Under the pieces are notes generated by a model that was not told the origin of the DNA, made no database searches, and saw nothing but the letters and a program-made list of their open reading frames with translations. From the NCBI GenBank assembly GCA_916610825.1, contig OU744447.1, forward strand, positions 19,871,563-19,935,562: DNA of 64,000 bases, read 5' to 3'. Shown one piece after another: positions 8,990-64,000 of the stretch. The first letter of the stretch is position 1. Each line of letters opens with the position of its first letter. The position numbers and the translations under genes are program-made. This stretch comes from Haliclystus octoradiatus (Eukaryota > Cnidaria > Staurozoa > Stauromedusae > Haliclystidae).

Positions 8990-8994
8990 GAATT

Positions 8995-9072
8995 GACCCC
9001 GACGTGATTTGAACACGCAACACGCAGCCTTCTGATCTGGAGTCAGACGCGCTACCATTGCGCCACGGAGTC
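8995..9072 (-). tRNA. tRNA-Trp (anticodon CCA) with a 7-nt T-arm duplication
   Basis: Read on the minus strand, this matches eukaryotic tRNA-Trp almost base for base: acceptor GACTCCG, A box TGGCGCAATGG, anticodon loop CTCCAGA between TCTGA and TCAGA, and a TTCAAAT T-loop with CACGT and CGGGGTC closing. The span is 78 nt where about 71 is expected. The surplus is a tandem copy of GCGTGTT at the variable loop/T-stem border, so the T-stem 5' half occurs twice. A and B boxes are intact and a T-run follows. It could still fold with an enlarged variable loop, or it may be a recent pseudogene. Confidence 0.85.
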
Positions 9073-56900: not shown

Positions 56901-59900
56901 AAAAATATTGCGCCCATTGTTTTTTTACATCGGCTTCTACTACATATGTAAAGATAGTCCGGGGGTTTATTTCCACCTTAATCAATGAGTTCGGAATTAA
57001 CTAGCGTTTGATCAGCTTGCTTGTTTCTTTCCTGCTATTTCAATTGTCCATAAACTTACTTTTGCAGATCCGTTCCTATGGTTGATAATCAAGGCAATCC
57101 AATCAATGAATCAATGTTGACAATTGAAGAACAACAGAAATATCTTGATAGTCAAGCTGGTACATCAAGACTTGACAATTTTATACATTGTTTATTGGTC
57201 AAATGCAGTTCAGAATTCCTTGAAGCTATTTTACGCACACTCCGAAAAGCTATGACTAGTGACGATGAAACAGAAAAGTCGGAATCCTTAGATATTTCTA
57301 CTCGATTTGTACGCTCTGTAATTCGTGTCTTTGTTGTGTTGTCAGCATGTATGGCACCAGCTACGGGAAAAAGACGAAGGTTAGTGCTTCTTCAATCATT
57401 GATCATATACGTAATACACTTGGTGTTTGCACTCAATCGGAAATGCCTTTACTTGAATGTTTCAGTTGTAAATATGAGAATCTGTAACAAATGGCAGCGA
57501 TAAAAAACACGGGATTTCACAACGTTTCGTCATATCATATCATCATGGCATCATTAGGTATATAAATACAAATTAAAAATTTGCAAATATATAGAGTTTT
57601 GGTTTACAAAGGAAGTTATCAAATACAATTACACGGAAATTAAACAAACAACTGGGATTTTATAGAATCCGATTGCGTATTGAGTGTTGGCTTGATGCGC
57701 CTGATTGCAAAAATTTCATAAACAAGACAATCAGTTTTGTTTTTGCATTTATTCAAAACATGGAAAGTGTGGTGACTGTTCCGGCCAGTTAAACCGTGAG
57801 AGTGACGAAGGTGTGCGCCAACAGCTGAACCGGTGTGTCCGTCAATACGTTGATGAAGGTGTTGGCATGTATAGCCAACATAACTAGCTTCACACAAGTC
57901 CCATTGAAAACAATACACAACGGATTGACGGGAAATCATCAATAAGTTTTTTACTGCTAAAAACTGGTTTGATAATTTGACCGATATTTGTACTAAGTTT
58001 TGATAATTGCCTTTTCAAGTTATTTGCCGAAATTTGATCCTCAAAAGGTAATACAGCATTAACGTCATTCTTAGTTTTGCTTGCAATAGGCAAATCAAGC
58101 AAACACTCAGTACGCCGTTTCTTAAACTTACTAATATTAAATTCTATTAGTTATATGGGATATTTTAAATCTAAAAATATTGACTTTAAATTACTACATT
58201 CATTATTAAAATTAGTATCTGATGATGATAAGCGATTTGCTCGATCAAGCATAGTATTTAATAATGCCTTCTTATAGCTTTGATCTATGTGGCCTTGGAT
58301 AATGCAATAGCATACCATTGTCGGTCTTTTTGTGAAAATTAATTTATTTATTAAATCAACACAACCATTGTCTAATTCCAATAATACGCCAAGGAACGGT
58401 AGTTTATTATTTTCTGCAATTACCATTATTGCAGGACGAGAAGTATTAAGTTGTTGCAAAAAATTATTAGCATCATTAAAATTGTTCATAATCGTTAGAG
58501 TGTCGTCCACATAACGATAGTAATGTCCACAGCACCACACTAAAGAACAGTCACTACACTTTCCGTGTTTTGAATAAATGCAAAATCAAAACTTATCGGA
58601 TTCTATAAAATCCCGGTTGTTTGTTTAATTTCCGTGTAATTGTATTTGATAACTTCCTTTGTAAACTAAAACTCTATATATTTGTAATTTTTTAATTTGT
58701 ACTTATATACCTGATGATATGATATAGCGAAACATTGTGAAAGCCTGTGTTTTTATCGCTGTCATTTGTTACAAATTTAATAAGCAAGAATTTATTAATT
58801 AATATGAGAATCATCATTTTTAATGTGTTTCACTGTCGATCTACCCCCAGATGCAGGTTAGCTCAATATCTTTGATTTTCAAACATAAATATTGCATCTT
58901 GCATTAGGCACTTGTCAATTCTCTACATTTTCATATGGGTGTTTGTTTGGGACCGTTGGGACATAGGACCATCAGCACCGATTTTAGGAATTCAAGGATT
59001 TAGGTCTTCCTCAAATTCAAATCCGGACGTCTGCTCTTTGAACTTCAAATTACCTTTCCAATAACACTTCTAAATGTCAAATATTGTTGTGTAGTTTGAG
59101 TGAGTTGTATTGATCAAGTGATGATGACATCAGTTTGCTGAAAGTTTCATGATGAAATCTAATCAACAGTCCGACTGAGCTTGATGGTTAGTAGAAATAG
59201 TCTGCACAAGGGAATAAAACAACTGTTGAAGCATTTGGTCTCTATCCTATTGTCTTTGGCAGTTAAGACCATCAGAGGCATTTTTAGGAATTGAAGAGGC
59301 ATAGGCAACTCTAGAAACAATCTCCTTGTCCCATGCAACACAAGCACACTCCAAATGTAGTTCATTCAAGAGGTATTCAGAAATCCCTGTATTGATTTCT
59401 TGTAATGATTTTTCCAGTGTGTTCTTCATTCCATTACTGAAATGTCGTCGTGTATTCGCCTCTTTGAACTCTGTGACTGTCAAAGAGCTAGCACTTGCTG
59501 CTGATGCTATTTTTACACCAGTACGTTTTGGTGTTGTTTGTCCATCTCTACCATTTCCAATGGCAACTACAACAACAGATACATCCCAGGCTAGTGATGA
59601 TCTCTTTACTGTTAGTACGTTCTTAACAAAGGCAGCAAATGATACCAGTAGAAAATCAAGAGGTCAAAGTAGTAGCCACAGGAATAGGCAGAATGCAAGA
59701 AGGCGGTCAAGACCAGAGAGTATGCAAGATGACGGAGAAGAAGATGTAAGCATTTTATTGTAATTTTGTTGTATTTTATTGTAATAAGTTTATTTAGGTT
59801 TATCTGCAAAATTGTTTTGAATCATTTTGAGTTGTTTTGAATTGTTTTGAATCATTCAAAACTATTTTATGGTAACATTTTCTGATTATTACAAATGTTG

Positions 59901-62900
59901 ATAAATTTAATAAAAATCTTTCCAATTTTGAGCTATACTTAACTGAATATATGATGATCAACATGTCTGTAGGCCAACGTGAAGTTGAATTTACACATAA
60001 TGTGTCTTAAATTATGCTTCTAAAGAGGAATATGGAGGCTAAAACCTTTGTGTTGTCTTTTGTTTGTATTGGTTGAACAAGCGATGATGACATCAGATTG
60101 CTGAATGTTTCATGACGAAATCTAATCAACAGTCCCACTGAGCTTGATGATCTATTGAAACAGACCGGCACATACAAATACACATTTTTGCGAGGCTTCA
60201 TTAAAGGTATAAAACTCATCATCATTCATCATCAAAATCCAGCGCCTTATGTTCTCAAAGTTGAAAGATGTGGTGTCTCTCAAGCCACAAGTAGTGTGCA
60301 TCACACACCATATTAGGGAGGTTTAGATTTAGTACAGGTACAGCTACTAGTATAGCTTTCTTGTTGCGCATCACTTCTGCGCATTGGGGAAAGCCCCTAT
60401 GCTCTGAAATCTGTGCTGACCTCCTCGTTTCGGGACGCCTTTCGGCGCGAAACATGGACCACGGAGTACATGTTTTGATTTCGTTGTTTTGCTTTGTTTT
60501 GGTTTTACTTTAGCTTTTTTGAATGAAATTTTATTGTCGCTATAAAATTTATACATAAAATCAAAATGAATCCTGAACAAATTGTCAGAAATTTTGTTTT
60601 TACCTGGAAAACAGAAACGGAGGTTTTATGCTATTGAATCTAAACGTCTTGTTTTGAAAGAACGAGTACAGGTATAACCCAGTCTTCTTGTTGACTAAAC
60701 ATGAACTTGAACCAGTACCGGTACTAAATCTAAACCTCCCTATTGGAAGACCAATCGCATACACTGCTGGTCAATTTTATACCTTTAAGTAATTCTGAAG
60801 GTGATGTCCACTTGAAGGATATGGGTTGAAATGTCCCTGATTGATTTTAAATGAAGTCTCAAACCTGTGAAAACACCTTAACTTCAAGATGGCACCTGTA
60901 TTGATTTGCTATATCTCTTTATCTTTGCAGCAGGTGGATGATCTAGCTGCACATACCAATACACAATCAGCTGATCATGGCGATAATGAAAACGAAGATA
61001 TGAATCTTGGTGAATCTGATATGGATTTAGATATCTTAGCCAGTGAAAGTGATTCTGATGAAAGTCAAACTGGAAATCTTGATGATTCATCTCGTAGCGT
61101 TGCACCTTCACGTCGATCAAACCGACCAGAAACATCCCTGGGTTCAAGAAATGGACCCCACGATGATTTAATTTTTTTTTCACCGCCTCGTTCTGTTACG
61201 GGAGATGAAAATCCGTATGTAGATGACGATGAAGATGATGACGAGGAAGAAGATGACGACGACGACGACGATGAAACAGATGGTACTCGTCATTTGGAAG
61301 GCATTGAAAGTCGGCAAACTATAGGTACCGGTATGCTCATTATACTTTGTTATATGCGACCATCCTTCTAATTTGGAAGAGGGTTCAGACTTCTTTCGCA
61401 TTAAGATCTGGGTCTCACATGGCACATGAGTCTTTTTTGCTATGAGAAAATCAGCAAAAAGAAAGGGAAGCTTATTATTCTTACTGGAATGCAACGACGC
61501 ATTATATTTGTTTATTTCTAATAATGTTGAATTGGTCTTTTGCAAATTCCTGCTCTTCAGACAAAGAGGTACAACATCCAAAATTGATGATAATGATGGT
61601 GTAACGCATGTTGGGTTGGTCAGCAGTTGTATGTCCACCAAATTTTGCTGTTTTTGCACCAATGTAGCATAATGTAATATAATGTAATATAAATGACACG
61701 TTGAAAACTCTCTATCTTTGATTGTCATCTTGTTCTGATGATAATAGCAGATTGCTGAATGTTTTATGACGATGCCTAATCAACAGTCCCACTGAGCTTG
61801 ATAATATATTGAAGACAGCACAGATTTTCCAGGACTCATATTAATTATTCAAAATGCAAATATCCTGTGGAAAGTGATGTTGCTGTAAATGTTGAATAAG
61901 ATATATGATGCAGCATGCAAAGGAACTCTCCAGCTTACCTGCAATCTTGTTTGAGCTCGAAATGCAATAAAAGTCAGGATAAATGCAACGAGTGATTGGA
62001 TCTTTGGCTTTTTCTTAATCGAAAATTTCAATCATAATAGTTTATTTGTCAACATTTCAAGTCGAATGTTTTTCATGTTTTATACATTCCAAGCAATCTT
62101 ATTATCACATGTATTTGTGAACATGTTTCTGTTAATTGGCAATGTTTTCTTTCAGAAGCTACACCCGCCCCATCGTCATTACAATGGGCAATAAGAAACA
62201 GTGATCGTCGCAATCCAACATCATCTTCGCATGCCTCTGGATCCGGTTTAATTTATATTGATACAGTGAATTTAAGACGATCTGGTACAGGGGCCAGCGC
62301 TGTCAGTACTGATTCACAATCATCAGGGACGTTGTATTGTACGCAAAGTGCATTGGCTAGGACATTCAGTATCATTGTTAGAGAGGTAAATGGAGTTAGG
62401 TGTTAGAGTATTTTTAATTTTATCTAGCTAGAGTGTAACTTATGTCTACTCTCTCTTATTTTAAATGTTATTTAAAGAAAAGCAATACAATTTATTATGT
62501 ATAATGCTACTGTACATTAGATCACATAAAATTGGAACAGCCTATTTCGTAGCATGTAGGAGATTGGTGTATCAGGTTCAATAAGGGCCACGGAATGTTG
62601 GTCATTCACATTTGCATACCTTTGTTCTTCAACAAAGCTTTTTCACAATCTCAATTATCATATAACCATTGAGTTTAATCCTATTATTATGACAAAGCGC
62701 CATCAAATTGACTTGCATGACCGAAATAGAATGAGGTGCATATATCAAGCGATGATGATAACAGATTGACGAAAGTTTCATGATGAAATCTAATCAACAG
62801 TCCCACTGAGCTTGATTTCCCAATGACCTAATCTATCTGCTAAATGAATTAAACCTTTCCCAGATCATGTGGAAATGGATGCAATCATCGATTGCTCTGA

Positions 62901-63205
62901 CGTGGATCTCATATGTTACAGCAACGGCTAGATTATCTACACATTCAAAAATATTACACCACCAACGTCTTGTTTCATCATTTTCCCCAACAACACAACC
63001 AATTCTTGATGATTTTAATTTATGTTTCACGTTTTTAGTTGACTGACACACTGGCTCTTTCTGCGTCTGATACCTCAGTTACTTGTTATTGTGTGCCTCT
63101 TGCCAATGAATCAATGCAACAAGCAAGAGATTTCACGTGTGATGTATTGGAACCAACATGGCAATGGTTATGGAGAGTCATGGAAACCGCTGAAGCACAG
63201 TTAGG
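17945..63205 (+). CDS. UBR5: E3 ubiquitin-protein ligase UBR5 (EDD/hyd), partial: 31 exons
   Basis: Exons: 17945-18026, 21318-21388, 22755-22816, 25911-25998, 27307-27493, 30838-30897, 30985-31081, 32263-32416, 33288-33492, 34188-34418, 36453-36610, 37967-38072, 38871-39084, 39554-39672, 40208-40321, 40587-40698, 41053-41210, 44878-44976, 45374-45472, 45932-46013, 47471-47617, 48361-48489, 49016-49172, 49380-49709, 49968-50114, 50537-50800, 57068-57379, 59418-59745, 60931-61324, 62156-62385, 63039-63205. All use GT-AG and every phase carries over without a stop, giving about 1,700 codons. Collinear with human UBR5 from the AFLLE region to TEAQL, with shorter linkers. The known family is a nuclear/cytoplasmic HECT ligase that binds N-degrons and builds K48/branched chains. 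UBA, RCC1-like, UBR box and acidic region are present; MLLE and the catalytic HECT domain lie beyond the window. Confidence 0.95.
18178..19330. repeat. AT-rich intronic repeat with GTAAT-rich blocks
   Basis: Repeated variants of AAGTAATCAGTAATCTAATTG and AGTAATTAGTAATTAATTAA occur in both orientations, and GAGAAATTCTC-like sequences sit near each end. This resembles degenerate transposon ends, but boundaries are uncertain. A short exon-like piece at 18482-18516 does not fit UBR5 phase. Confidence 0.35.
20183..20955 (+). mobile_element. hAT-type element, copy 1 (5'-truncated, carries a MITE)
   Basis: About 770 bp homologous to the complete copy at 24696-25562, ending in the same TGTTTGTGCCACCCTG terminus. 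The left terminal repeat is missing; homology starts at TTTTTGCCTTCGGCGAACC. It also lacks a ~240-bp internal block present in the other copy, and a 164-bp MITE is inserted at 20525. Confidence 0.75.
20525..20688. mobile_element. hAT-type MITE nested in a hAT copy
   Basis: Ends CAGGGTCCGACAAAAG and CTTTTGTCGGACCCTG are a perfect 16-bp inverted repeat. The 8-bp duplication AGTAAGAG flanks it (20517-20524 and 20689-20696). The paralogous host sequence at about 25040-25060 contains one AGTAAGAG and no MITE, which is the empty site. Confidence 0.92.
21389..22145. other. UBR5 intron, no further feature
   Basis: Non-coding intron sequence between the [11 protein letters not shown] exon and the MITE at 22146; nothing else recognised. 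Confidence 0.5.
22146..22308. mobile_element. CAGGGTCC-type MITE, older copy
   Basis: The right end CTTTTGTCGGACCCTG is intact. The left end has decayed to TTGTCCAACAAAAG. The interior has the same TCCTGCAATCCTAAATTCCCGG and TTCAGAAGA motifs as the 40387 copy. No clear target duplication. Confidence 0.7.
22411..22605 (+). other. Orphan exon-like ORF inside a UBR5 intron
   Basis: An open frame reading [19 protein letters not shown] and on to TDKLQTSK, ending at a GTAATA donor-like site. Codon composition looks protein-like and unlike the surrounding intron, but its phase cannot join the UBR5 exons at 21388 and 22755. It may be an alternative exon, a captured gene fragment or a chance ORF. No family recognised. 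Confidence 0.3.
24696..25562. mobile_element. hAT-type non-autonomous element, complete copy
   Basis: Terminal repeats CAGGGTGGCACAAA and TTTGTGCCACCCTG, with an 8-bp duplication GTCTTGGA at 24688-24695 and 25563-25570. Sub-terminal CTTCGGCGAACC/GGCGAACTACGTTCGCAGG adds a palindrome. It is 867 bp with no transposase. The frame at 25429-25761 spans the right end and is not a gene. Confidence 0.9.
26181..27130. mobile_element. 950-bp TTAA foldback element
   Basis: Almost the whole element is one inverted repeat centred near 26665. The ends are AGTGTATATCCCG and CGGGATATACACT, directly bounded by TTAA on both sides (26177-26180, 27131-27134). TTAA targets are used by piggyBac and Kolobok superfamilies. 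Open frames in the arms (26254-26502 plus, 26897-27106 minus) are mirror images and look non-functional. The left arm carries an extra 34-bp block copied from, or shared with, the right flank. Confidence 0.88.
27802..30740 (+). mobile_element. Kolobok-type DNA transposon, apparently complete
   Basis: A perfect 18-bp terminal inverted repeat GGTCACTCTCTAGTCTAA (27802-27819; complement 30723-30740) is bounded by TTAA on each side (27798-27801, 30741-30744). It is 2,939 bp long, encloses one long transposase gene, and lies wholly within a UBR5 intron in the same orientation as UBR5. The intact ORF and identical terminal repeats suggest a young insertion. Confidence 0.9.
28402..30180 (+). CDS. 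Kolobok-type (DDE) transposase
   Basis: 592 residues from ATG 28402; an in-frame GTG 9 bp upstream is not needed. The N-terminus is basic and Lys/Arg-rich, like a nuclear localisation signal. A zinc-binding cluster [10 protein letters not shown] starts at residue 85, with a further CESC pair. The catalytic-type core has DGSW (Asp 217), a Cys/His cluster (LCPSC...HICP), [10 protein letters not shown] (Asp 313/315), [11 protein letters not shown], and a late [17 protein letters not shown] (Glu 484), giving a plausible D-D-E triad. Databases often label this protein family 'Mutator-like transposase', but TTAA target duplication is the hallmark of Kolobok. The C-terminus is a Lys/Arg/Gln-rich coiled coil. 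No stop or frameshift is seen, so it may be active. Confidence 0.9.
   Translation: MSSGDSSNVRRKFSVKRRCKRKLFPAKKSLNEKQQESADFDEQPGASSKKLKLSEKDIIVEDKCHGFRLVNLKLLELLINEASICKSCKQGRLCLQEDSSRKMGLSSMIMLTCESCSAITESYTSPIAEGSRGYEINRRAVFGMSEIGGGKTSLEKLCAILNMPEAMTETSYIDNLNIVKESLEKCASSSMLNAAKEEHNLQDVQQRKIADCKAMFDGSWRKRGFSSLQGVVTAISVESGKVLDYESMNKLCPSCSRWGSKPESLKKQSWNANHICPVNYDGSAPSMEPEGIKRMYERSVKDKKLRYTGYIGDGDSKSFSTIKESMPYGNKIDIKKHECVGHVQKRMGNALRKLKTQWGKKKLPDGKTIGGRGRLTKDLIGKLQIYYGLAIRRNKNNLEAMRKEVWAGLYHTASTNDKPQHQNCPTGKESWCKYQKAVANKETYSHVKTIPESIVAVLKPTYERLGKDEILEGCLGGYTQNSCEALNHLIWSRCPKGVSSGRAHLDAACASAVTVFNDGTSALNNVLVAMGVAPGQFMLAQTRKIDQKRIRESDRNASTIQKKIRQAQRQSKKAVEDEVLEEEGVAYEAGGF
30838..31081 (+). other. 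UBR5: UBR5 UBA domain (two exons)
   Basis: Exons 30838-30897 and 30985-31081 encode [20 protein letters not shown] followed by [18 protein letters not shown], nearly identical to the ubiquitin-binding UBA domain of human UBR5. The acidic tail (EPEDADD) after the domain is also conserved. The intron separating the two halves is only 87 bp, the shortest in the gene, although a 2.9-kb Kolobok element sits in the intron just before. Confidence 0.92.
32075..32165 (-). repeat. R1 repeat fragment
   Basis: Minus-strand relative of the repeat at 41385: GGCGTGAGGTGCTTGGACGG, TGGGAG, then GTTAGACCAGCTAGCAATCC and GTCACCACCCAA. It is part of a dispersed family seen at five sites in this window. Confidence 0.55.
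33688..34038 (+). mobile_element. tRNA-derived SINE, copy 3
   Basis: The best-preserved copy, with 8-bp target duplication TTTTAATG (33680-33687, 34039-34046). Head GGGGTGATTAGCTCAGTTGG (A box) and GTGGTTCAAATCCCC (B box); body as in the other copies; tail GGTAGGGCGACACCGTCC then a T-rich end. It lies 195 bp after a UBR5 exon. Confidence 0.9.
34838..35570 (+). repeat. R1 repeat with minisatellite tail
   Basis: Starts with a ~110-bp hairpin-forming unit (AGGTGCTTGGTTGGTG ... CACCACCAACCAGCTCC) and CAGTCACACTGCTAAGACAG. It continues into diverged tandem units containing AGCATCTCACAACTTTCAAGC and CATGGCAGC, and ends near CAGCAAGCTGGCAATCAAGG. The copies at 44063 and 63404 have the same order. 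No coding capacity. Confidence 0.6.
37468..37741. mobile_element. 274-bp MITE
   Basis: Terminal repeats AGGCCTGGTTCATACGC and GCGTATGAACCAGGCCT, extended by imperfect ATGTGCC/GGCACAT pairing. No unambiguous target duplication (flanks TTTC and TAAG), so the superfamily is open. Confidence 0.75.
40387..40523. mobile_element. hAT-type MITE (CAGGGTCC family)
   Basis: 137 bp, ends CAGGGTCCAACAAAAG and the near-complement CTTTTTGTCCGACCCTG, target duplication GCTCCTAG at 40379-40386 and 40524-40531. It is inserted in a 265-bp UBR5 intron, so half the intron is this element. Confidence 0.92.
41385..41477 (+). repeat. R1 repeat, interrupted by a hAT element
   Basis: GTTTGGTGCTTGGATGGTGGG, ACGTTAGACCAGCTATCG and GAACCTGTCACTGCCCAAAG precede CCAGTCACACT, where the 1.24-kb hAT element begins. 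The repeat resumes at 42720 with GTCACACTGATAA. Other R1 copies show the uninterrupted CCAGTCACACTG. Confidence 0.6.
41478..42719. mobile_element. Non-autonomous hAT element, 1.24 kb
   Basis: Terminal repeats TAGGGATGCACCGAAATTCCG and CGGTGCATCCCTA, a hAT-style terminus, with the 8-bp duplication GTCACACT (41470-41477, 42720-42727). Subterminal sequence is rich in CCGAAA/TTTCGG units in both orientations. It has no transposase and contains a second, 392-bp element. Confidence 0.92.
41720..42111. mobile_element. 392-bp foldback element nested in the hAT copy
   Basis: Ends GGTCGTGGCTAGATCAGGGG and its exact complement; the arms continue almost to the centre. Both sides carry the 9-bp sequence GTCTTGAAA (41711-41719, 42112-42120). 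A 9-bp duplication with long terminal repeats suggests a Mutator-like (MULE) derivative. The superfamily is inferred from duplication length only. Confidence 0.85.
42728..44062. other. UBR5 intron, remainder of R1 then unique sequence
   Basis: After the hAT element the intron shows a short R1-like GGGCCTGGGTGGGAGG patch near 42798, then AT-rich sequence without genes or clear transposon ends. Confidence 0.45.
44063..44650 (+). repeat. R1 repeat, full-type copy
   Basis: CTAGGTGCTTGGTTGGTGGG ... GACCTGACACCACCAACCAA, then CCAGTCACACTGCTACGTCA and a CA/AAC-rich tail. It is the same order as 34838 and 63404. Confidence 0.6.
44834..44863. repeat. (ATT)n microsatellite
   Basis: About nine ATT units just before the acceptor of the UBR5 exon at 44878; length variation here could affect the polypyrimidine/branch region. 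Confidence 0.85.
46880..46951. mobile_element. CAGGGTCC-type MITE fragment
   Basis: Left end CAGGGTCCGACAAAACTCG and the following ACCTGGCAACTAGGTTTCC, CAAAAATTCAGGAGAAAA match the family. The right terminal repeat is not recognisable, so this is a decayed or truncated copy. Confidence 0.55.
49380..50114 (+). other. UBR5: UBR5 UBR-box zinc finger (N-degron binding)
   Basis: Exons 49380-49709 and 49968-50114. After [20 protein letters not shown] (the pre-UBR helical repeat) comes [18 protein letters not shown], then [40 protein letters not shown]. All zinc-ligand cysteines and histidines of the UBR box are present, and the exon boundary falls in the Lys codon of HDCK. In the family this domain recognises basic N-terminal residues of degradation substrates. 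Confidence 0.96.
51194..51502 (+). mobile_element. Solo arm of the TTAA foldback family (type A)
   Basis: Follows a TTAA (51190-51193) and begins AAAGGGAATAAATCCCCAGAC. It shares with the copy at 53270-53578 the diagnostic GTGGGCTGATCACGCGA and TTTGAGGTGACGTAGCTCC. It abuts the TTAA at 51503-51506 where the large composite element starts. Confidence 0.7.
51971..52246 (-). pseudogene. Mirrored ORF in left foldback arm, frameshifted
   Basis: Reads outwards from the element. Its last ~45 codons match the plus-strand ORF at 56253-56525 ([39 protein letters not shown] and a shared stop). The middle is in a shifted frame relative to that copy, with a second indel restoring the frame. Unknown protein. 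Confidence 0.45.
54179..54508 (+). other. Unrecognised ORF in the composite element
   Basis: About 109 codons, the first half paired with the left inner arm (where it is interrupted) and the second half in the unpaired region ([36 protein letters not shown]). It looks protein-like but matches no family I know, and the natural start is unclear (TTG in the frame as read). Possibly a captured gene fragment. Confidence 0.3.
56253..56525 (+). CDS. Unrecognised 90-residue ORF in right foldback arm
   Basis: Starts [20 protein letters not shown] and continues with charged then aromatic residues ([31 protein letters not shown]) to a stop after GHQRIF. It is the mirror image of the minus-strand ORF at 51971-52246 and better preserved. 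No catalytic motif, signal peptide or membrane segment. It may be an element-encoded protein or part of a captured exon; function unknown. Confidence 0.35.
   Translation: MSQSVVYRMQKYNAKVTLHKIPFYRDDKSDGQISFLRKEDYKIDGYGVLIAFPNIHYDFYPQENTPLSVQTYAYNYKFYLASYFGHQRIF
57483..58778 (-). mobile_element. Penelope-like retroelement, decayed, with inverted partial copy
   Basis: On the minus strand, 58540-58151 encodes a reverse transcriptase fragment with the [11 protein letters not shown] catalytic motif, [11 protein letters not shown] and a C-terminal [16 protein letters not shown] stretch. After frameshifts come [19 protein letters not shown] (58102-57890) and a GIY-YIG-type endonuclease segment [18 protein letters not shown] with a late IKPTLN (57942-57640). 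This RT plus GIY-YIG order is typical of Penelope-like elements. The 3' end (57483-57675) recurs inverted at 58549-58778. It is 5'-truncated and inactive. Confidence 0.85.
59113..59185 (+). ncRNA. Box C/D snoRNA, UBR5-intron family copy 1
   Basis: Closing stem ATCAAG/CTTGAT brackets box C ATGATGA (59121-59127), D' CTGA, C' ATGATGA and box D CTGA (59175-59178). The antisense stretch TCTAATCAACAGTCCGA lies immediately 5' of box D. It is in the UBR5 intron before exon 59418, on the sense strand, as expected for splicing-dependent snoRNA release. The guide differs from the other copies at one base (G for C). Confidence 0.75.
60078..60146 (+). ncRNA. Box C/D snoRNA, UBR5-intron family copy 2
   Basis: Stem CAAGC/GCTTG, box C ATGATGA (60084-60090), D' CTGA, C' ATGACGA (one change), guide TCTAATCAACAGTCCCA and box D CTGA (60138-60141). 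It is in the intron between exons 59418-59745 and 60931-61324. All boxes are usable, so it is probably functional. Confidence 0.75.
60316..60740. mobile_element. 425-bp inverted-repeat element
   Basis: Ends GGGAGGTTTAGATTTAGTAC and its exact complement, with TA on both sides (60314-60315, 60741-60742). A TA duplication would fit Tc1/mariner, but ATT is also possible. The interior includes a GC-rich hairpin-like TTCGGGACGCCTTTCGGCGC. Confidence 0.7.
60931..61324 (+). other. UBR5: UBR5 acidic, low-complexity exon
   Basis: This exon encodes [23 protein letters not shown], matching the SDMELDLLAAAETESDSES block of human UBR5, then Ser/Arg-rich sequence and an almost pure Asp/Glu tract. The start has a NAGNAG acceptor (GCAGCAG), so an alternative one-codon difference at residue 1 is possible. 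The C-terminal acidic run replaces the longer Ser/Asp linker of vertebrates. Confidence 0.85.
61731..61802 (+). ncRNA. Box C/D snoRNA-like copy 3, degenerate
   Basis: D' CTGA, C' ATGACGA, guide CTAATCAACAGTCCCA and box D CTGA (61792-61795) are kept. The 5' stem strand is lost and box C is CTGATGA. Probably a failing copy. It is in the intron before exon 62156. Confidence 0.5.
62744..62816 (+). ncRNA. Box C/D snoRNA, UBR5-intron family copy 4
   Basis: The best stem of the set, ATCAAGC/GCTTGAT (7 bp), with box C ATGATGA (62752-62758), C' ATGATGA, guide TCTAATCAACAGTCCCA and box D CTGA (62806-62809). The D' position reads GACGA rather than CTGA. It lies in the intron between exons 62156-62385 and 63039-63205. 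Confidence 0.75.
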
Positions 63206-63293
63206 GTGAGTTGGAACAGTGTTTGTAAGTCATTTTAGGACTGTGGACGAGCCTGTATATGTGGTGAAATGTGACCAATGGGGATCTTCTATA

Positions 63294-63318
63294 AATCAAC
63301 AGTCCCACTGAGCTTGAT
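63294..63318 (+). ncRNA. snoRNA family copy 5, 3' half only
   Basis: AATCAACAGTCCCA, box D CTGA (63308-63311) and the 3' stem strand GCTTGAT are exact. Sequence to the left no longer matches, so boxes C, D' and C' are gone. It is a truncated relic in the intron after exon 63039-63205. Confidence 0.55.
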
Positions 63319-63403: not shown

Positions 63404-64000
63404 AGGCAGACCTGACACCACCACCCAAACTCCAGTCACATTGCTAAGTCAGTTGAATTCTTAATTATACTTACCAACCATAACTATGACTGGGAGGAGG
63501 ATGGGAGAAATAAATGTTCCACATTTAACCAGCCATTCAGAATCAGCCACATTTAACCAACCCAAACTCAATCATTCATTAGCATAGCCTAGCATAGCAA
63601 CAACAACAACATCAATGAAAGCAGCATGGCCCAAAGCATTAGCATTTCATAGCATAGCAACAACAAAAATATCAATGATAGCAGCATTGTTGCTATGCCA
63701 TGCTAATCATAAAGCATTAGCATGGCATAGCAACAACAACAACACTAGTGATAGCCCAGTGTATGGCATAGCCCAATGTATTAGTATAGCATAGCAACAA
63801 CACAAATGCTAAAAACATCTAAAGTGGCAGGTTGAAAAATTATCAACAGCCAAAGCCTCAACCTTCATTAGCATAGCATTACAACAAGTAAATATGACCT
63901 CAATTAACACGCTCATCAAAAATAGATTTACAACTTGCGGAAGTTGGCTGAAATGAACCAAGCAGCAAGCTGGCAAAGCAAGGAATGAATTAAAATCATT
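63404..64000 (+). repeat. R1 repeat with GCATAGCAACAAC minisatellite
   Basis: Begins GGCAGACCTGACACCACC and CCAGTCACATTGCTAAGTCA, then many diverged units of CATAGCAACAACAACA with TTAGCAT, and AAGCAGCAAGCTGGCAAAGC near the edge, as in the 34838 copy. It fills the visible part of the next UBR5 intron and continues out of the window. Confidence 0.6.

Follow-up and report, generated by a model that had tools for sequence, protein, structure and literature searches.

A 64,000-nt stretch of the genome of the staurozoan Haliclystus octoradiatus (hereafter the window; contig OU744447.1, positions 19,871,563 to 19,935,562, forward strand) contains part of a gene for the ubiquitin ligase UBR5, and the introns of this gene hold short homologous units that very probably belong to a single family of box C/D guide small nucleolar RNAs (snoRNAs). 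The hand-joined exons between the units match UBR5 (chain 8ewi, residues 1455–1853, E 5.4e-36). Exons further upstream match residues 1108–1285 of the same chain, with a weak piece at 898–938, and downstream the match resumes at residue 1855 with the following two exons. By these matches, copies 2 to 5 occupy successive introns, preceded by the intron that holds copy 1; an upstream search, which covered one frame only, did not find the exon immediately 5′ of copy 1.

An earlier prediction from the sequence (the original prediction) had described five such units, all on the sense strand, in consecutive UBR5 introns. Both a pattern search and a covariance model recover them (Table 1). The family core pattern AATCAACAGTCCNACTGAGCTTGAT has five matches in the window, all on the + strand and with 0 mismatches, compared with 0.00 in 100 shuffles. 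The covariance model, which was built from eight copies and includes the first four window copies in its own alignment, scores the five units at 97.0, 96.6, 93.5, 77.8, and 21.5 bits, the last value (copy 5) corresponding to an E of 0.11 over 124 kb.

Table 1. Window positions of the intronic C/D units, their parts, and the intervening UBR5 exons
Feature	Positions	Strand	Remarks
Copy 1	59113..59185	+	Complete C/D unit, in UBR5 intron
Copy 1, closing stem	59113-59118/59180-59185	+	
Copy 1, box C	59121-59127	+	ATGATGA
Copy 1, box D′	59138-59141	+	
Copy 1, box C′	59149-59155	+	
Copy 1, guide	59162-59173	+	
Copy 1, box D	59175-59178	+	
UBR5 exon, copies 1/2	59418..59745	+	Splice sites by eye, approximate
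Copy 2	60076..60148	+	C/D unit; box D 60138-60141; C′ is ATGACGA
UBR5 exon, copies 2/3	60931..61324	+	Splice sites by eye, approximate
Copy 3	61730..61802	+	Degenerate; box D (61792-61795) and guide intact
UBR5 exon, copies 3/4	62156..62385	+	Splice sites by eye, approximate
Copy 4	62744..62816	+	C/D unit; 7-bp stem 62744-62750/62810-62816; guide (-2 to -13) 62793-62804; box D 62806-62809
UBR5 exon, copy 4/relic 5	63039..63205	+	Splice sites by eye, approximate
Copy 5	63294..63318	+	25-nt 3′ relic: guide, box D, 3′ stem strand only

Copies and box architecture of the family

The family extends beyond the window. Searches of the H. octoradiatus assembly jrHalOcto1.1 (261,861,806 bases; described as 33 scaffolds and 262 Mb in PMC9975415) found a decayed sixth UBR5 copy in the next intron, ∼3.1 kb beyond the window end (L008:7123-7195; 63.5 bits with the covariance model), whose guide is altered by internal changes. 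Three further copies lie in introns of an ankyrin gene, the third of them decayed, and one lies in an intron of PRPF19. The family thus occupies at least 10 places (six in UBR5, three in the ankyrin gene, and one in PRPF19), and each of the 10 copies found lies in an intron, on the sense strand of its host, with splice sites, and the exons flanking ankyrin copy 3, judged by eye. BLAST searches of the genome gave at least seven places with copy 4 as query, at least four with copy 6, and at least nine with the PRPF19 copy (the query counted each time); all genome-wide family counts are lower bounds. The exact 15-mer complementary to the guide occurs at at least seven places, namely six family copies and C1:4397392.

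Examination of the copies highlights the boxes and stems expected of C/D snoRNAs. With the relic left uncounted, box C (RUGAUGA or UGAUGA) is present in seven of the nine near-full-length copies, the exceptions being ankyrin copy 3 and UBR5 copy 6; box D (CUGA/CTGA) is present in all nine and in the relic as well. In copy 6 a second CTGA follows the homologous one. In the closing stem, 83.6% of 55 cells pair, compared with 18.8–39.6% after sliding the strands by 1–3 columns. The copies likewise preserve an inner stem (AGATT/AATCT), in which 85.7% of cells pair, above the slid controls. The internal boxes are less regular: UBR5 copy 1 has both C′ and D′, UBR5 copies 2–4 each have one of the two in degenerate form, and in the ankyrin and PRPF19 copies the inner stem occupies the C′/D′ region and C′ is degenerate.

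Individual UBR5 copies show further variation. In copy 1, a GTGATGA at 59118-59124 overlaps box C, and position -2 of the guide is G instead of C, a change that would cost one terminal target pair. Copy 2 has one mismatch in its closing stem. In copy 3 the closing stem has lost its 5′ strand, and there are changes immediately 5′ of the guide. Thus one degenerate copy and one 3′ relic are present, as originally described. The accompanying description of three copies with a closing stem and all four boxes was slightly generous: copies 1, 2, and 4 do have the closing stem, C, and D, but standard D′ and C′ boxes occur together in copy 1 alone, because C′ is altered in copy 2 and D′ reads ACGA in copy 4.

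The UBR5 introns also hold repeats of other kinds. Upstream of copy 1, window positions 57479-58777 contain broken reverse-transcriptase-like open reading frames on the minus strand, enclosed by inverted repeats with arms of 124 nt at 95% complementarity, along with shorter ones; the structure looks like a Penelope-type element. A 41-nt direct repeat (76% identical, family D9) flanks copy 1 at 58956-58996 and 59256-59296. Degenerate repeats of the unit TAGCATAGCAACAACAA occupy 63577-63887, in the same intron as relic 5.

Conservation of the guide and the extent of the duplicated unit

The segment from the guide through box D reads AUCAACAGUCCC-A-CUGA and is the most conserved part of the unit. 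Across an alignment of eight copies (UBR5 copies 1–4, ankyrin copies 1–3, and PRPF19; relic 5 and copy 6, with its changed guide, were left out), mean pairwise identity is 94.6% for guide plus D versus 70.6% for the rest of the unit, and 18 of 23 columns are invariant versus 18 of 52 elsewhere (Fisher p 0.0009). This agrees with the original suggestion that the guide-D unit has been selectively kept. The inner stem may explain the retention of AAUCU just 5′ of the guide, in which case the antisense element proper would be AUCAACAGUCCC (positions -2 to -13).

The 400-nt flanks on both sides of the ten copies gave no blastn match to one another at E 0.01. UBR5 copies 3 and 5 have nine extra nt in common on the 3′ side (family D2), and copy 2 has part of these. 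What was transferred or retained thus comprises the snoRNA and no more than ∼10 nt beyond it. Because the flanks lack homology apart from these ∼10 nt 3′ of some UBR5 copies, the family does not look like an ordinary dispersed repeat.

A short interspersed repeat, or a snoRNA-derived retroposon without present function, nonetheless deserves consideration, and several observations favor it. Four copies are decaying (UBR5 copies 3, 5, and 6 and ankyrin copy 3); only the 3′ end is left of the relic, as expected from 5′-truncated retroposition; copies 3 and 5 have their 9-nt 3′ flank in common; and transfer between chromosomes took place. On the other hand, every one of the 10 copies found, a lower bound, is intronic and sense. 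No convincing target duplications were found around them, since words shared by 5′ and 3′ flanks reach at most 7-mers, occur in three of the 10 copies, and are wrongly placed for duplications. Moreover, the guide and box D were kept while the remainder dropped to ∼71% mean identity. A nonfunctional repeat is an improbable explanation. The original prediction had named a transposable repeat spread outside introns with target duplications as the outcome that would count against it, and the placement and flanks of the copies found do not match it.

Other results weigh against the assignment to C/D snoRNAs. Covariation is no better than in controls for either the closing stem (186 of 500 shuffles reach it) or the inner stem (174 of 500), and the folding energies of five copies are no better than those of shuffles (z -0.53 to 0.74). 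Rfam yielded no snoRNA family match in the window at the gathering threshold and, at a relaxed threshold, no named C/D family, with a best score of 22.2 bits compared with a gathering threshold of 45. The conservation of the guide is also partly ascertained, as ankyrin copy 3 was found through the guide 15-mer and relic 5 and copy 6 were excluded from the alignment. Setting these points against the architecture, the intronic sense placement, and the conservation of guide and box D, we consider it highly probable that all copies form one box C/D guide snoRNA family, and the C/D reading of the original prediction stands.

Expression and protein binding would follow established C/D biology. Splicing would release each copy within its host intron; after debranching, trimming would proceed as far as the closing stem. 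The trimmed RNA would associate with 15.5K, NOP56, NOP58, and fibrillarin and would direct 2′-O-methylation through the element that precedes box D. The family itself grew both by cis-duplication, within UBR5 (six successive introns) and the ankyrin gene (three introns), and by trans-duplication among UBR5, the ankyrin gene, and PRPF19.

A candidate target in 18S rRNA

The best target for the guide is probably the 18S rRNA segment GGGACUGUUGGU, with which it would form 12 bp and methylate the A equivalent to human 18S A1452. Written GGGA*CUGUUGGU, the proposed duplex includes one G-U pair, and the base opposite position -5 lies in GGGA*CUG. This reading presupposes GGGACUGUUG at the site in H. 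octoradiatus 18S. With the cnidarian 18S segment, which we take to be GAGGGACUGUUGGUG, the guide forms a 12-bp duplex (-21.5 kcal/mol) that has the canonical spacing from D and a score of 11.5; random sequence of 5.6 kb would be expected to contain 0.0028 matches of this score. In human 18S, as we assume its sequence, the corresponding base is A1452; nowhere in it does the guide score above 6.5, and it would thus not fit there. To our knowledge, the A1452 equivalent is absent from the vertebrate 18S methylation sites. A literature search for 18S A1576 or A1452 returned nothing relevant among the matches listed; an apparent mention of the site in the accessible part of PMC12533644 is a catalogue number.

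The state of ribosomal sequences in the assembly weighs against this target. No intact 18S or 28S was found with a 28S 23-mer, the 18S segment, or 18S 19-mers allowing two and one mismatches, so the 12-bp duplex rests on the assumed cnidarian sequence and on inference from pairing. A gapped pattern spanning the site matched only an already known, diverged 18S fragment, L021. Searches of viral and genome contig collections returned no cnidarian 18S and, among viral contigs, one unrelated coding match. L021 (370 bits against SSU_rRNA_eukarya, over 513 nt) is the sole in-genome fragment that covers the target site. In the 462 nt scanned, the best site for the guide is GGGACTGT, at the same position, with 8 bp starting from -2. 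Such a match does not rise above chance: in the 462 nt, 367 of 5000 shuffled guides do equally well, the number expected in 5.6 kb is 0.59, and the D′ guides, which vary, score 6.5–7.5 in this fragment. The 3′ helix strand of L021, ACCAAAGTCAGGAAGG, agrees with a primer for 18S of the coral Porites, TCCAACCAAAGTCAGGAAGG, given in PMC3202587. By pairing, the two imply a 5′ strand of GACU-n-UUGGU, as in the cnidarian segment assumed above.

Two diverged 18S fragments, both within contig C5, were returned by the 18S-segment search: L021 (C5:18947400) and L022 (C5:22859101).

Alternatively, the family may be a genuine C/D snoRNA that guides another RNA (28S rRNA, another small nuclear RNA (snRNA), or an mRNA) or an orphan without a modification target. 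The chance-level match in L021 favors this possibility, as does a 7-bp pairing with GGGACUG of U1 at the same spacing (four of 17 over-cut-off U1 copies scanned). However, U1 scores 7.0 and U2 scores 5.5 (four of 46 scored U2 copies scanned), both below the 11.5 of the assumed cnidarian 18S, and outside the family the exact 15-nt complement occurs in the assembly just once, at the C1 match, which by eye lacks C/D boxes. We regard another target, or none, as somewhat unlikely.

The working guide could also be the D′ element, with U2 snRNA C40 as its target. The D′ guide of UBR5 copy 4 pairs with AUCUGUU of U2 over 7 bp, placing position 40 opposite -5, and C40 is a known methylated site. Yet the D′ guide differs between copies, the copy 4 D′ box is itself degenerate, the D′ guide of copy 2 pairs at another place in U2, also over 7 bp, and the conserved element is the one upstream of D. 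We consider this reading very improbable.

U2 snRNA genes form an array of ∼250 kb on a single strand at C2:14580862-14831406, with at least 46 scored copies of 188.2 bits each among 18411 first-look candidates.

The guide had originally been described as perhaps orphan or lineage-specific. An 18S target can now be proposed for it, partly on an assumed sequence. Tentatively, we conjecture that the units form a lineage-specific guide family that methylates the 18S A1452 equivalent, outside the vertebrate sites known to us, at a hairpin that fits the guide in cnidarians and not in humans, as far as our assumed sequences go. Its multiplication over six UBR5 introns would then tie the dose of ribosome modification to a ubiquitin ligase gene.

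Relation to known snoRNAs

Judged by sequence, this is very probably a new C/D snoRNA family, while its apparent mode of growth is already known, because studies of chicken and sponge describe the same cis- and trans-duplication. Neither snoRNAs in UBR5 introns nor this guide family are reported in the titles or abstract openings among the matches listed in our literature searches. In chicken, intragenic snoRNA duplication is said to be possibly the major driving force (PMC2653536), and in the sponge Suberites, snoRNAs are described as duplicated in neighbouring introns of ribosomal protein genes (PMC3412847). As far as these texts describe them, the paralogs resemble the H. octoradiatus family in occupying neighbouring introns of one host with copies in other hosts. 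The family differs from them in its host (a staurozoan UBR5), its spread over six successive introns, its several decaying copies, and a guide that was not matched to a known family.

The snoRNAs closest in target are SNORD61 and its neighbour, which we take to guide human 18S U1442 and G1447. Both act on the same short 18S stretch, at sites that precede the proposed A by 5 to 10 nt, and both differ from the H. octoradiatus family in methylated base and guide. The chicken equivalents of these two sites are listed as U1397 and G1402 (PMC2653536, Table 1), and no site starting ‘18S-A-14’, as the chicken equivalent of the proposed A would, appears in the available text of that paper. Retroposed snoRNAs, cited for platypus and nematodes in PMC3412847, are alike in that a snoRNA-sized unit was copied to new introns and another chromosome, here with one 3′-only relic; they differ in that no target duplications were found around the H. 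octoradiatus copies.

If these readings are correct, the family would provide a cnidarian snoRNA with a concrete, testable methylation site. Its complete, degenerate, and truncated copies within one gene would likewise form a natural series for the duplication and decay of guide snoRNAs. The general picture of snoRNA biology would be unchanged.

Elsewhere in the window, the anticodon arm of a minus-strand tRNA gene (8994-9072) is followed by an insertion that is probably either an intron or a long variable arm.

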